Under the pieces are notes generated by a model. It did not search any database, was not told the DNA's origin, and saw only the letters and a program-made list of their open reading frames with translations. The translations under genes and the position numbers were made by a program. Shown in pieces: positions 49,040-54,284 of a stretch of DNA of 64,000 bases. Each line of letters opens with the position of its first letter. Positions within the stretch are counted from its first letter, which is position 1. The DNA comes from Anaeromyxobacter soli (GTDB lineage: Bacteria; Myxococcota; Myxococcia; Myxococcales; Anaeromyxobacteraceae), in assembly GCF_022808855.1 (NCBI RefSeq), contig NZ_JAKZLF010000028.1:1-64000 (forward strand), written 5' to 3'.

Positions 49040-49270
49040 ATGGCGAGGCGGCGGGATCGCAGGGGGGGCGAGGCGCGGGCGGACGCGATCGTGGCGGACG
49101 CGCACCGGCGGCAGCGGGCGCGCACGCTCCTCATCGGCGCGATCGTGGCCGCGATCGTGGGGTTCGGCGCTGGCCTCCTCGTGCGGATGTGGACCGATCG
49201 CTCGCCCGAGGCGCGCGCCCGGGACGCGGTGGGCGAGCTGCAGGAGCACGCGCGCGAGCACGCGCGCTGA
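49040..49270 (+). CDS. small single-pass membrane protein
   Basis: This 76-residue protein has a strongly basic N-terminus (MARRRDRRGG), one membrane helix (about residues 30-50, LLIGAIVAAIVGFGAGLLV) and a charged amphipathic tail. The ATG touches the stop of ilvA with no gap, implying translational coupling. No family is recognised. The charge pattern predicts that the N-terminus stays inside the cell. Confidence 0.6.
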   Translation: MARRRDRRGGEARADAIVADAHRRQRARTLLIGAIVAAIVGFGAGLLVRMWTDRSPEARARDAVGELQEHAREHAR

Positions 49271-49374: not shown

Positions 49375-49403
49375 TTGAACGGATCCGTCCGGTCGGTCAT
49401 GAT
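49375..49403 (+). promoter_or_regulatory. promoter of the sigma-kinase operon
   Basis: TTGAAC (49375-49380), a 17-base spacer and CATGAT (49398-49403) fit a sigma-70 promoter. The same stretch (GAAC then GGTC) also resembles ECF-type promoters, so self-activation by the encoded sigma factor is possible. The predicted start is about 48 bases before the sigma factor ATG. Confidence 0.45.
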
Positions 49404-49457: not shown

Positions 49458-50027
49458 ATGAGGGACGACCGCGCTGGGGCGCTCATCGAGGACGGAGAGC
49501 TCCAGGCCGGCGCGGAGGCGGTCGTCCGCGACTACGGCCCCCAGATCCTGGGGTACCTCACCTCGATCCTGCGCAACGACGCGGACGCGGCCGAGGTCTT
49601 CTCCCAGTTCACCGAGGATCTCTGGCGCGGGCTCCCCGGGTTCCGCGGCGAGTGCCCGGTGCGCGTCTGGGCGTACCGGCTCGCCTGGCACGCCGCGGCG
49701 CGCCACCTGCGCGATCCGTACCGGCAGCGCGGCAGGCGCCTGGAGACCACGGAGCTGTCGCGCATCGCGGAGGAGGTGCGCTCGAGCGTCCTCCTCGGGC
49801 AGCGCGAGGCGCGGCAGCGCGGCATCGACCTCCTGCGCGCGCGCCTCTCGCCCGACGAGCAGACGCTGCTCGTGCTCCGGCTCGATCGCGGCCTGTCCTG
49901 GCGGGAGGTCGCGACCGTCCTCGCGGAGGAGGGTGAGGGCGTGGACGAGCCGGCGCTCCGCAAGCGGTTCGAGCGCCTCAAGGAGCGGCTCGCCCGGATG
50001 GCACGCGAGGAGGGGCTCCTCGAGTAG
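49458..50027 (+). CDS. ECF-type RNA polymerase sigma factor
   Basis: This 189-residue sigma-70 family protein has only regions 2 (about 30-87; YLTSILRNDADAAEVFSQ then FRGECPVRVWAYRLAWHAA) and 4 (about 122-185; LSPDEQTLLVLRLDRGLSWRE). In region 2.2, where typical ECFs have an acidic DAED-type helix facing RNA polymerase, this one reads DAAEVFSQFTED, with Ser49 and Thr52 in the helix. The ATG at 49458 has GGGAGG upstream. No anti-sigma gene adjoins it; a Ser/Thr kinase gene starts 14 bases later. In Vibrio EcfP/PknT, kinase phosphorylation of the sigma replaces the missing charges; the same logic may apply here. Confidence 0.85.
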   Translation: MRDDRAGALIEDGELQAGAEAVVRDYGPQILGYLTSILRNDADAAEVFSQFTEDLWRGLPGFRGECPVRVWAYRLAWHAAARHLRDPYRQRGRRLETTELSRIAEEVRSSVLLGQREARQRGIDLLRARLSPDEQTLLVLRLDRGLSWREVATVLAEEGEGVDEPALRKRFERLKERLARMAREEGLLE

Positions 50028-50041
50028 GAGCGCGGGAGCGC

Positions 50042-53000
50042 ATGGACGACGGGATCCACCCGCGGCGCCCCACCTCCCCGGAGCTGGCGGGGGACGGCGA
50101 GGCTCTGTCCTCCCTGCTCATGGAGCTCGCGAGCGCGCCCGCGCGCGATCCCGGCGACCTCGCCCGCCCCATCGTGGCGGGCCAGCGGATCGGGAGGTTC
50201 GAGCTCCTCCGTGAGGTGGGGCGCGGCGGCTTCGGCGTGGTCTTCGAGGCGCGAGACACGGAGCTCGGGCGGCTCGTCGCGTTCAAGGCCATGCGCCCGT
50301 CGCTCGCGCAGCCGGCGCTGCTCGAGAAGCCGCTCCGCGAGGAGGCCGAGGCGGCCGCCCGGCTCAACCACCCGAACGTCGTCACGCTGCACGACTACGG
50401 GATCCACGAGGGGACGCCGTACCTCATCCTCGAGCTCCTCCGCGGCGAGACCCTCCAGCAGCGGATCCGCCGCGGCGCGCTGGCGCCGCTCGAGGCGGTG
50501 CGGTTCGCGCGCGACGTCGCGCGCGGGCTCGTGCACGCCCACGCGAACGGCGTCGTCCACCGGGACCTCACGCCGGGCAACGTCTTCCTCACCGACGAGG
50601 GCGGCCTGAAGATCCTCGACTTCGGCCTCGCCCGCCTCCTCGATCGCGCGAGCCTCGCCGGCGGCACGCCGGCCTACATGGCGCCGGAGCAGCTCCGGGG
50701 AGAGCCCGGCGACGCGCGCGCCGACGTGTTCAGCGCCGCGGTGATGCTCTTCCAGATGCTCGCCGGACGGCTCCCGTTCCCGCAGGTCGAGGGCCGGAGC
50801 GCGGCCCTCGATCCCGGCCCGCCGCCGCCGCTCCCCCTGCACGACGCGCCGCCCGAGCTCCCCGCGCTGCTCGCGAGCGCCCTCTCGAAGGATCCCGCCG
50901 GGCGCCCCCAGAGCGCGAGCGCCCTCCTCGCCGCCCTGCAGCGCGTGGAGGAGGCGTACACCGAGCGGGCCGCCGCCGCCTCCCGGGCGCTGCGCCACCG
51001 CCGGCTGCGCCGCGTCGCGGCGGTGCTCGGCACGATCACGATCGCGGCGGCCTCGGGCGCGGCGGCGCTCGCGCTCCGGGCGCGCGGCGAGGCCGAGCGC
51101 GCCCTGCGCGCCTCGCGCATCGCGAGCGCGGCGGAGGGCGCCTCCGACCCGCTCGCCGCGGCGCTCCTCATGACCGAGCTCGGCGAGGATCCGCCCGCCC
51201 GCGCGCTCGAGATCGCGCAGCGGATCCTGTCGGAGCCGATCCCCGTCGCCGTGCTCGACCACCCGCCGGGCGGCCTCGGGCTCGCGGTGAGCCCCGACGG
51301 CAGAGAGGTCGCCGTGGGGGTGGGCTCGGCGGAGGCGGCCGGCGGCGGCGCCCCGGCGGCGGGCGTGGCCATCTGGAACGCGGACGGCACCGGGGGCGCT
51401 CGCGTCCTCACCGCCCCGGGCCTGCACACGACCGCGCTCGCCTTCACGCCCGACGGGGCGCGCGATGTCGTGGGGACGCACGACGGCGAGCTGAGGGTGT
51501 TCCGCGCGGACGGGAGCGGGAGGCCGCTCGTGCTGGCCGCCGGCTCGAGCCCGCACGCGGCGCTGGCGGTCGCGCCCGACGGCCGATCCGCCGCGGTCGG
51601 CGCGCTCGACGGGCGCGCCTGGATCGTCCCGCTCGACGGCGCGCGGCCGGCGCGCCCGCTCGTCCACGACGGGGCGGTGCTGACCCTCGCCTACGCACCG
51701 GACGGCGCGCGGCTCGCCACCGGCGGCGGAGACGGGCACCTGCGCGTGTTCGACACGCGCTCGGGCGCGCTGCTCGCGCGCGTGACCCTGCCCGGCGGTG
51801 CGATCTTCGCGCTCGCCTGGGCCCCCGACGGCGGCGCGATCGCCACGGCCTCCGAGGACGGGGTGGCGCGCCTCTTCTCCGACGGCGGCACGCCCCGCGC
51901 GGCGTTCGGCGCGGCGGGCGCGCCGCTCTCCTCCGTCGCGTTCAGCCCCGACTCGCGGCGGATCGTGATCGCCTCGCAGGACGGGTCCGCGCGGATCCAC
52001 CCGGTCTCCGCGCCCGCCCAGCAGGTGCGCCTGCGCGGCCACCGCGGCGCGGTCATCGACGCGCGCTTCAGCCCCGACGGCGCGCACGTCCTCACCGTCG
52101 GCGCGGACGGGACCGCGCGGGTGTGGGCGGCCGACGGCGAGGGCACGCCGCTCGTGCTCCGCGGCCACACGGCCTTCGAGGCGGCGTTCTCTCCCGACGG
52201 ATCGCGCATCTTCACGCGGGGGAAGGATCGGACGATCCGCGTCTGGAAGGCCGAGGACCCGCGGGAGCGCGGCGTCCTCCGCGGGCACGGCGAGCTCGTG
52301 GACACCGTCGAGTGGACGCGCGACGGCACGCGCATCGTCACCGCCGGGCACGACGGCACGGCGCGGATCTGGCCCATCCACGGGGACGGCGCGCCCCTCG
52401 TCATCTCCGACCCGGGTCGCGTGCTGCACTCGGCGGACCTGGATCGCGACGAGCGGCGGCTCGTGACGGCGTCGGAGGACGGGACGGTACGGCTCTGGGA
52501 CGCCCGCGACGGGCGGCTGCTCCGCGAGCTGCGCGGCCACACGAGCTCGGTCCTCTCGGCGGCGTTCAGCCCCGACGGCACCCGCATCGCGAGCGCCTCG
52601 CTCGACGGCACCGTGCGCATCTGGCCCGCCGACGGGGACGGCGAGCCGCTCGTGCTTTACGGCCACGAGAAGGGCATCACCTCGGTGTGCTGGACGCCGG
52701 ACGGCAAGTTCGTGGTCTCGGCCTCGCAGCTCGACGCTACCGTCCGCATCTGGCCGGTGGACGGCTCCCCGGCGAGCGTCATCCGCGCGGAGCGGAGCGT
52801 CTTCCGCGCGACGGTGACGCCCGACGGGACGCGCCTGCTCGTCGCCGAGGAGAACGGGCCGCTGCACGTGTACCGGCTCGAGCCGCTCGAGGAGCTGCCG
52901 CCCATCGCGGCGCTGCCGGAGGGGCTCTTCTCCGCGGCGGCGAGCCCGGACGGCGACCGCATCGCGCTCACCTCGCACGACGGCATCGTGCGCGTCTACC

Positions 53001-53347
53001 CGGCCTCGGGCACCGGCGAGCCGCTCATCCTGCGCGGCCACGACGGCAGCGTGGGGCACGCGGCGTTCAGCCCGGACGGCACCGAGCTCGCGACGGCCTC
53101 GGTCGACGGCACCGCGCGCGTGTGGACCGTCTCGTGGGGACGCGTGCTCGCCCTCCTTCGCGCCTCGACGACGGCGTGCCTGCCGGTGGCGCACCGGGTC
53201 CAGATCCTCGGGGAGAGCGCGGCGGAGGCGGAGCGCCGGGCCGCCGCGTGCGAGCAGCGCCACGGGCGGGCGCCCGAGCCCCGCCGGCCTCCGGAGGGAG
53301 AGCCGGGCGCCGGCCTTCCGCCGCCGACCTCGGCGCGGGGAGGATGA
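50042..53347 (+). CDS. Hanks-type Ser/Thr kinase with 15 WD40 repeats
   Basis: This 1101-residue protein has a kinase domain at about 51-310: glycine loop GRGGFG (60-65), Lys82, HRDLTPGN (173-180), DFG (193-195) and APE (214-216). Thr177 stands where most Ser/Thr kinases have Lys (HRDLKP); the other catalytic residues are intact. One membrane helix lies near 325-345. About 15 WD40 repeats (about 390-1060; for example AAFSPDGTRIASASLDGTVRIW) follow, enough for two seven-bladed propellers on the outer side. The gene follows the sigma gene by 14 bases and overlaps the next gene by 4. The propeller probably senses an extracytoplasmic ligand and the kinase signals to the sigma factor. Confidence 0.93.
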   Translation: MDDGIHPRRPTSPELAGDGEALSSLLMELASAPARDPGDLARPIVAGQRIGRFELLREVGRGGFGVVFEARDTELGRLVAFKAMRPSLAQPALLEKPLREEAEAAARLNHPNVVTLHDYGIHEGTPYLILELLRGETLQQRIRRGALAPLEAVRFARDVARGLVHAHANGVVHRDLTPGNVFLTDEGGLKILDFGLARLLDRASLAGGTPAYMAPEQLRGEPGDARADVFSAAVMLFQMLAGRLPFPQVEGRSAALDPGPPPPLPLHDAPPELPALLASALSKDPAGRPQSASALLAALQRVEEAYTERAAAASRALRHRRLRRVAAVLGTITIAAASGAAALALRARGEAERALRASRIASAAEGASDPLAAALLMTELGEDPPARALEIAQRILSEPIPVAVLDHPPGGLGLAVSPDGREVAVGVGSAEAAGGGAPAAGVAIWNADGTGGARVLTAPGLHTTALAFTPDGARDVVGTHDGELRVFRADGSGRPLVLAAGSSPHAALAVAPDGRSAAVGALDGRAWIVPLDGARPARPLVHDGAVLTLAYAPDGARLATGGGDGHLRVFDTRSGALLARVTLPGGAIFALAWAPDGGAIATASEDGVARLFSDGGTPRAAFGAAGAPLSSVAFSPDSRRIVIASQDGSARIHPVSAPAQQVRLRGHRGAVIDARFSPDGAHVLTVGADGTARVWAADGEGTPLVLRGHTAFEAAFSPDGSRIFTRGKDRTIRVWKAEDPRERGVLRGHGELVDTVEWTRDGTRIVTAGHDGTARIWPIHGDGAPLVISDPGRVLHSADLDRDERRLVTASEDGTVRLWDARDGRLLRELRGHTSSVLSAAFSPDGTRIASASLDGTVRIWPADGDGEPLVLYGHEKGITSVCWTPDGKFVVSASQLDATVRIWPVDGSPASVIRAERSVFRATVTPDGTRLLVAEENGPLHVYRLEPLEELPPIAALPEGLFSAAASPDGDRIALTSHDGIVRVYPASGTGEPLILRGHDGSVGHAAFSPDGTELATASVDGTARVWTVSWGRVLALLRASTTACLPVAHRVQILGESAAEAERRAAACEQRHGRAPEPRRPPEGEPGAGLPPPTSARGG

Positions 53348-53838
53348 CCGTGAACGCCCGCGCCCTCGCCGCCCTCTCCCTCGTGGCCGCGCTCGCCGCC
53401 GCGCCCGCGCACGCCGACGCGCCCACGCCACCGCGGCTCCCGCCCCCCGCTCCGGAGCCACCGCCGGCCGGCGCCGAGCGCGTCGAGGTCCGCGTCACGT
53501 TCCCGCCCTGGCAGTACACCGGCAAGTTCCGGCTCGAGACGATCTCCGGCGACCTCCTCGACGAGGGGACGGCGCGGGACGACGGCGGGTTCGCGTCGCA
53601 GGCGACGGTGGAGCGCGTGCTCGAGGGCGCGCGCGGGACGCTCGTCCTCCGCGTGCAGCGCACCGCGAAGGTGCCGCGCTTCCCGGCGCTGTTCGGGCGC
53701 TGGACGGTCGTGGGCGGCACGGGCGCGTACGCGCGCGCGGTCGGCCGCGGCACGTTCACGAGCTGTGCGTCAGGTGAAGTCGGTAAGGGGAGTCCCTTCG
53801 AGCTACAGACGCTCGTGGGCTACGCGCGCCTCCGGTGA
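53344..53838 (+). CDS. secreted beta-barrel protein, possibly allene-oxide-cyclase-like
   Basis: This 164-residue protein has a signal peptide (cleavage near AAAPAHA/DAP) and a Pro-rich spacer (TPPRLPPPAPEPPPAGA). A beta-rich domain ends in RWTVVGGTGAYARAVGRGTF, the kind of Gly-Thr-Gly-Ala-Tyr motif seen in allene-oxide-cyclase/dirigent-like barrels. The fold assignment is tentative. It overlaps the kinase stop by 4 bases (ATGA). Being the third gene of the sigma-kinase operon and periplasmic, it could be the ligand or a modulator of the WD40 sensor. Confidence 0.7.
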   Translation: MTVNARALAALSLVAALAAAPAHADAPTPPRLPPPAPEPPPAGAERVEVRVTFPPWQYTGKFRLETISGDLLDEGTARDDGGFASQATVERVLEGARGTLVLRVQRTAKVPRFPALFGRWTVVGGTGAYARAVGRGTFTSCASGEVGKGSPFELQTLVGYARLR

Positions 53839-53951: not shown

Positions 53952-54284
53952 ATGACGCGCGAGAAGCAGGAAGTCCTCTTTGCCGGGTTGCCGCGCAGGC
54001 GGCGTCTCGCCGGGTTCGTCACGATCGCTCTCTGGCTCGGTATCGCCGTCGCCTTCGCGACCGACCTGGTGCCCACGAAGTCGAGCGCCGAATGGCTGTA
54101 CGGGGTCGAGGCGCGACGCGATGCCTACGCCCACGTCCTCGCTGCGCGCGCCGCGCAGCAGACCGACGCGCCGCGCCGCGCGCGGACGCCGCCGGCCACC
54201 GCCCAGCGAGACCGAGCGGCGGCTGTCGTCACGCCCGCCACGCTGCAGGTCCACACGCCGCCCGCGCTCTGCCAGGCGCCGTGA
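53952..54284 (+). CDS. small membrane-anchored protein, unknown
   Basis: This 110-residue protein has a basic N-terminus (GLPRRRRLAG) and one membrane helix (about residues 20-38, GFVTIALWLGIAVAFATDL). A periplasmic-type tail rich in Ala/Arg/Thr/Pro follows and ends near a single Cys (PALCQAP). GGAGGAGCGG upstream of the ATG supports translation. I recognise no family. It is convergent with the DUF2905 gene, whose stop lies 9 bases away. Confidence 0.55.
   Translation: MTREKQEVLFAGLPRRRRLAGFVTIALWLGIAVAFATDLVPTKSSAEWLYGVEARRDAYAHVLAARAAQQTDAPRRARTPPATAQRDRAAAVVTPATLQVHTPPALCQAP

Follow-up and report, generated by a model that had tools for sequence, protein, structure and literature searches.

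Organization of the locus

The stretch of Anaeromyxobacter soli DNA analysed here (64,000 nucleotides, referred to as the window) carries three closely spaced genes on the forward strand. A sigma factor gene (49458–50027, 189 aa) is followed after a 14-nt gap by a kinase gene (50042–53347, 1101 aa), which in turn overlaps a third gene (53344–53838, 164 aa) by the 4 nt ATGA. An earlier note on this DNA had described a three-gene operon, and the coordinates, the gap and the overlap are all as it reported. The features discussed below are:

49375–49403, + strand: promoter-like TTGAAC-17-CATGAT upstream of the sigma gene, from an alignment of Anaeromyxobacter loci
49458–50027, + strand: ECF sigma factor, 189 aa, of a lineage almost restricted to Myxococcales
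49584–49625, + strand: region 2.2 helix of the sigma factor, residues 43–56 (DAAEVFSQFTEDLW), from the gapless AlgU profile alignment, 20 sigma factors of the genome and 83 relatives
50042–53347, + strand: membrane Ser/Thr kinase with WD40 repeats, 1101 aa
50102–50143, + strand: N-terminal helix motif of the kinase, residues 21–34 (ALSSLLMELASAPA), a candidate sigma docking site common to the kinases of the system
50198–50914, + strand: kinase domain, residues 53–291, with Lys82, Asp175 and Asp193 present
50570–50572, + strand: Thr177 codon in the catalytic loop HRDLTPGN, Lys in 8 of 10 orthologues
51017–51082, + strand: predicted single transmembrane helix, about residues 326–347, from a hydrophobicity scan, with basic residues on the kinase side
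51248–53131, + strand: WD40 propeller region, predicted periplasmic, 60 predicted strands in about 15 blades
53344–53838, + strand: small secreted eight-strand barrel protein, 164 aa, occurring only with this WD40 kinase

The WD40-kinase version of the locus is arranged as ilvA–sigma–kinase–third gene, followed by bioF/bioB. The sigma factor is 98% identical to its Anaeromyxobacter terrae counterpart, and the adjacency of the sigma and kinase genes, with its 14-nt gap, is kept in 10 of 10 orthologues. As the earlier note had stated, no anti-sigma-like gene is recognisable among the neighbouring genes. Two small open reading frames were considered for this role and rejected. The product of the one at 49040–49270 (76 aa, membrane) has no Pfam hit and only a very short cytoplasmic part, and the frame is absent in a related genus, where the sigma gene follows ilvA by ~20 nt; the other (53952–54284, 110 aa) likewise has no Pfam hit and is not present in all orthologues. 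The former is a small single-span membrane frame between ilvA and the sigma gene that is kept in Anaeromyxobacter (~55–76 aa).

Upstream of the sigma gene, the TTG and the 17 spacing of the promoter-like element are preserved in 7 Anaeromyxobacter loci; a strict consensus promoter scan of this region called nothing, TTGAAC-17-CATGAT included. The element looks like a housekeeping rather than an ECF promoter, so that transcriptional self-control of the sigma factor is not indicated. A housekeeping-like promoter would suit a sigma factor that is stored and then switched on after translation.

The sigma factor and its region 2.2

The sigma factor scores as an ECF protein (TIGR02937, 52 bits against a cut-off of 42.9), with Sigma70_r2 above its cut-off and Sigma70_r4_2 weak. 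It comprises sigma2 and sigma4 domains only within its 189 aa, as expected of the ECF class (group 4). Region 2.2 was aligned without gaps by comparing a profile of 30 relatives with AlgU, which places D43-A44-A45-E46-V47-F48-S49-Q50-F51-T52-E53 against E-A-Q-D-V-A-Q-E-A-F-I of AlgU. In the literature the core-binding motif is given as DxxDxxQE (PMC13147305). D43 and E46 correspond to the first and fourth positions of the DAED run and are both acidic, only the third position being altered (E to A45); the Gln of the motif is replaced by Ser49 and its Glu by Gln50, and Thr52 lies three residues beyond Ser49.

The same pattern is found across the family. All 83 non-redundant relatives have D/E at position 46, and ~98% of them have Glu at position 53, as do 30/30 of a smaller aligned set. 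Position 49 is Ser in ~78% of relatives (63/81 scorable) and Ala in most others; in the smaller set it is Ser in 30/30 and Gln in none. Conversely, of the 20 further sigma-70-type factors of this genome that were checked, each carries Gln at position 49 and D/E at position 46. With the acidic DxxD positions kept, what is really unusual about region 2.2 is the loss of the Gln-Glu pair and the gain of Glu53 rather than the lack of an acidic run. The earlier claim that the DAED acidic run is lacking is hence contradicted by the retention of D43 and E46, and the placement of Ser49 at an EcfP-like phosphosite does not hold either: EcfP is phosphorylated on the second Thr of STTA, which corresponds to the third DAED position (PMC8999054) and thus to Ala45 of the sigma factor studied here, whereas Ser49 replaces the Gln of DxxDxxQE. 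Ser or Thr at the third DAED position was found in only 2% of kinase-linked and 18% of unlinked relatives.

Candidate phosphorylation sites

Ser49 is almost equally frequent in sigma factors beside a kinase (81%) and in those without a kinase neighbour (74%), and Ala occupies the position in 8/42 kinase-linked members; the Ser/Ala/Gly mixture at 49 could reflect a demand for a small residue. At position 52, Ser/Thr occurs in 44% of linked against 5% of unlinked members, these being raw counts that rest on a few clades. Thr52 is clade-specific, Thr or Ser at this position being characteristic of the WD40-kinase clade, whereas most of the sigma family has Ala. Thr52 was rejected as the switch, its association with kinase adjacency not being significant on independent pairs. 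The earlier proposal that phosphorylated Ser49 or Thr52 replaces a missing charge thus finds no support, the acidic positions being present, Ser49 about equal with and without a kinase, and the Thr52 test failing.

When all Ser/Thr residues around region 2.2 and within the linker were compared between linked and unlinked sigma factors, no site stood out, in what is a weak comparison, since unlinked sigma factors occur in genomes with unlinked N-helix kinases (see below). Well-kept Ser/Thr residues are found in the sigma2–sigma4 linker at positions 97, 101, 109 and 111, and EcfK uses linker phosphosites (PMC13147305). The sequence alone names no phosphosite; Ser49 and the Ser/Thr-rich sigma2–sigma4 linker are possible candidates.

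A syntenic ilvA/bioF locus on the complete chromosome of another genome (L097, G023:C1:4101947-4114504) lacks the WD40 kinase and the third gene. Its fast-diverging sigma factor carries Gly49 and Glu52. Glu52 would fit a phosphomimetic residue, on what is a single long, possibly relaxed branch.

The kinase and the secreted barrel protein

The Hanks kinase domain is clear (Pkinase, 158 bits, residues 53–291), and Lys82 (VAxK), Asp175 (HRD) and Asp193 (DFG) are invariant in six orthologues. The catalytic-loop Lys of HRDxKxxN is Thr177 here and in A. terrae only, the 8 other orthologues having HRDLK, a sequence that A. oryzae, for instance, retains; because of this substitution, activity of the window kinase is not certain. 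HRDLS/T is found in 7/65 kinases with a recognisable catalytic loop, and several other sigma-linked kinases have Ser at the Lys position. One hydrophobic segment lies near residue 334, and WD40 repeats are clear (Pfam WD40, 291 bits, 10 stretches). The AlphaFold2 model displays 60 strands over residues 403–1029, mostly with pLDDT near 90, corresponding to ~15 blades, the number given in the earlier note. Cys 1046 and Cys 1070 near the C-terminus are invariant, as might be expected of a part that lies in the periplasm.

The third protein begins with a signal-peptide-like segment and is modelled as a barrel of eight strands (mean pLDDT 76, with values exceeding 85 for most strands), in line with the secreted beta-barrel suggested previously. 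Its fold is weakly similar to the small barrel cyclases PloI4, AbyU and Cyc15 and to DUF3224/dirigent proteins, from all of which it differs by its signal peptide, low TM-scores and lack of sequence membership. Matches to the cyclases are weak (best E 0.02, probability up to 0.96, TM-scores ~0.35), and the DUF3224 and dirigent scores of 15.6 and 12.4 bits fall below the respective cut-offs of 25 and 29.1 (Pfam E 0.014 and 0.13). A secreted protein at another locus (L072), initially flagged as a relative, reads as unrelated. The third gene is present in exactly the 10/145 genomes that carry the WD40-kinase version, and this strict tie favours a part for the barrel protein in sensing. It may be a ligand, a ligand carrier or an output of the system, and gating of the WD40 domain by the secreted protein is possible.

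Pairing of sigma factor and kinase across genomes

A search of 145 genomes of the order provided 100 sigma loci, 83 of them non-redundant. The lineage is almost exclusive to Myxococcales, with 3 more genomes of the phylum sample outside the order. A kinase gene lies within one gene of the sigma gene at 43/83 non-redundant loci, as against ~0.9% expected (from 21 kinase genes in a 5.3 Mb genome with an estimated total of roughly 4,700 genes), and about half of the family sigma factors have no kinase within two genes. The position of the kinase varies (downstream, upstream or on the opposite strand) and at least 19 changes in kinase adjacency are counted on the tree; thus the pairing has been kept while gene order has not. 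The WD40-kinase version is one clade of 10 (SH-aLRT 100), and the WD40 kinase, the sigma orthologue and the barrel protein co-occur in the same 10 genomes, always as a trio. Joint loss is also seen: a complete genome of the same genus lacks the sigma family, the kinase and the third gene altogether, and within the family of the window's genome the two genomes without the sigma factor are also without N-helix kinases. The pairing is real, and belongs to a wider myxobacterial family of sigma–kinase pairs. Conserved linkage, repeated re-pairing and co-loss in combination lend support to the central suggestion of the earlier note, namely kinase control of a sigma factor without an anti-sigma factor.

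At six loci, kinase-less family sigma genes lie downstream of a HAD-type hydrolase gene and precede a gene for a ~100-aa protein with one N-terminal membrane span.

A helix common to the kinases of the system

Kinases beside family sigma factors have a hydrophobic N-terminal helix just before the kinase domain, with the consensus LSxLLxELAxAP, or (L)SxLLxELAxxP. A simple pattern for this helix is matched by 33/45 adjacent kinases and by 9% of shuffles, and in most of the remaining adjacent kinases the start had been placed too late by the gene caller. The helix is absent from unrelated kinases two or three genes away. In a comparison of 18 genomes, every match to a helix-plus-G-loop profile that scored at least 82 bits came from the six sigma-bearing genomes, and the best match in the 12 sigma-less genomes reached 69 bits. 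Of the 145 genomes, 30 encode N-helix kinases (E<=1e-19), and 28 of these have the sigma family too (Fisher p 1.6e-9, not corrected for kinship). The other two are incomplete genomes with an N-helix kinase and no sigma match, and most Myxococcaceae genomes with the sigma factor fall below the kinase threshold.

The genome of the window has five N-helix kinases against two family sigma factors: the WD40 kinase of the window and four with TPR-type sensor regions. The latter are encoded on contigs 67, 5, 12 and 56, distant from both family sigma genes. Larger expansions are found in three other genomes, with 24, 16 and 11 helix kinases against 7, 4 and 3 family sigma factors, respectively. The helix is a promising candidate for the site where the sigma factor docks; it could also merely mark kinase descent.

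Relation to known systems

The closest described systems are the ECF43 sigma factors, EcfP with PknT in Vibrio parahaemolyticus and EcfK with PknS in Xanthomonas citri (PMC8999054, PMC13147305), which similarly have an adjoining transmembrane Hanks kinase and no anti-sigma gene. The core-binding motif of region 2.2 is changed in both cases. However, ECF43 loses the DxxD half (STTA/QTTA), whereas the window sigma factor retains the DxxD acids and loses the QE half. ECF43 proteins are phosphorylated on Thr at the third DAED position (T51 of EcfK), and EcfK on linker sites in addition; the corresponding residue here is Ala45. Thus, although an adjacent Hanks kinase gene is present, membership of ECF43 was rejected because two of its defining features, an uncharged replacement of DxxD and a Thr at the third DAED position, are lacking: D43 and E46 are present, and Ala45 occupies the phospho-Thr position.

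Known kinase-linked ECF groups include ECF43, 59, 61, 62, 217 and 283 (PMC8999054). The last five also display Ser/Thr-kinase microsynteny with a DAED-like motif kept, and in some of them Ser/Thr in or near it; their examples in PMC8999054 are planctomycete and actinobacterial. Kinases with periplasmic WD40 arrays are likewise known from Planctomycetota, Cyanobacteria and Myxobacteria and follow the same plan of a cytoplasmic kinase, one span and up to 19 periplasmic WD40 repeats (PMC11032199, PMC5587647), and in Planctomycetes WD40 genes adjoin sigma-70-type genes (PMC5587647). What sets the present system apart from the known WD40 kinases is one orthologous operon of sigma factor, WD40 kinase and secreted barrel, and the distinct N-terminal kinase helix. 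Consequently, to call the arrangement undescribed, as the earlier note did, was too strong given the kinase-linked ECF groups and WD40/sigma neighbourhoods on record (PMC8999054, PMC13147305, PMC5587647).

Proposed mechanism and alternatives

That the kinase controls the sigma factor we consider probable. The best-supported reading is that this control is exerted through direct contact and most likely involves phosphorylation. The kinase would span the inner membrane, the catalytic domain lying on the cytoplasmic and the WD40 propeller region on the outer side, and its N-terminal helix (ALSSLLMELASAP) would dock on the cognate ECF sigma factor. The propeller would sense a ligand or partner (conceivably the barrel secreted along with it, or a molecule which that barrel binds), upon which the kinase would phosphorylate the sigma factor and thereby raise or lower its affinity for core RNA polymerase. 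An anti-sigma factor would not be needed, because the core interface of the sigma factor would itself be weakened by the change from Gln-Glu to Ser-Gln in region 2.2. We hold this full myxobacterial scheme of helix docking, sigma phosphorylation and a weakened core interface in place of an anti-sigma factor to be slightly better than an even proposition; the many family sigma factors without an adjacent kinase count against it, as does the finding that no single Ser/Thr tracks the kinase.

The original reading, in which phosphorylated Ser49 and/or Thr52 supplies a missing charge and activates the sigma factor as in EcfP/PknT, draws on the position of Ser49 at the core-contacting Gln and its presence in most scorable relatives, on Thr/Ser52 as a mark of the WD40-kinase clade, and on Glu52 in the syntenic sigma factor that has lost its kinase. 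It is nevertheless unlikely: the acidic positions are not missing, Ala49 is common also among kinase-linked members, Ala52 prevails in most of the family with the kinase association not significant on independent pairs, and the Glu52 case is a single long, possibly relaxed branch with Gly49. The failure of any sigma phosphosite to stand out would agree with a kinase that serves as its own anti-sigma factor, its helix tethering the sigma factor at the membrane until a signal brings about release, the trigger being phosphorylation of the kinase. The lack of an anti-sigma gene nearby, the hydrophobic helix common to the kinases and the substituted catalytic-loop Lys of some members all fit such a tether. 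Yet the helix, whose binding to sigma is hypothetical, has only ~20 residues, far below the size of known anti-sigma domains, and five kinases for two sigma factors suit signalling more than one-to-one sequestration, which makes this arrangement improbable.

Mere co-expression of sigma factor, kinase and barrel, with the sigma factor governed at the level of its own transcription or by a factor encoded elsewhere, would account for the roughly half of family sigma factors that have no kinase within two genes and for the conserved promoter-like element in Anaeromyxobacter. Repeated re-pairing in differing gene orders and genome-level co-occurrence argue against it, as does the housekeeping-like rather than ECF-like character of the element, and we regard it as very unlikely.

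Implications

Kinase control of a sigma factor without an anti-sigma factor has already been worked out for ECF43 (EcfP, EcfK). In the present family it is the other half of the core-binding motif that is lost, and its kinases have a short helix in common, which provides a testable specificity code. More tentatively, and with the balance somewhat against it, direct-contact control might extend in Myxococcales to a network of many sensors and few sigma factors, in which kinases with a common docking helix and interchangeable WD40 or TPR sensors converge on a Gln-less ECF family whose hold of RNA polymerase would be set by phosphorylation or docking rather than by an anti-sigma factor. The ratios of five kinases to two sigma factors here, and of 24 to seven elsewhere, bear on the question of why myxobacteria carry so many kinases.
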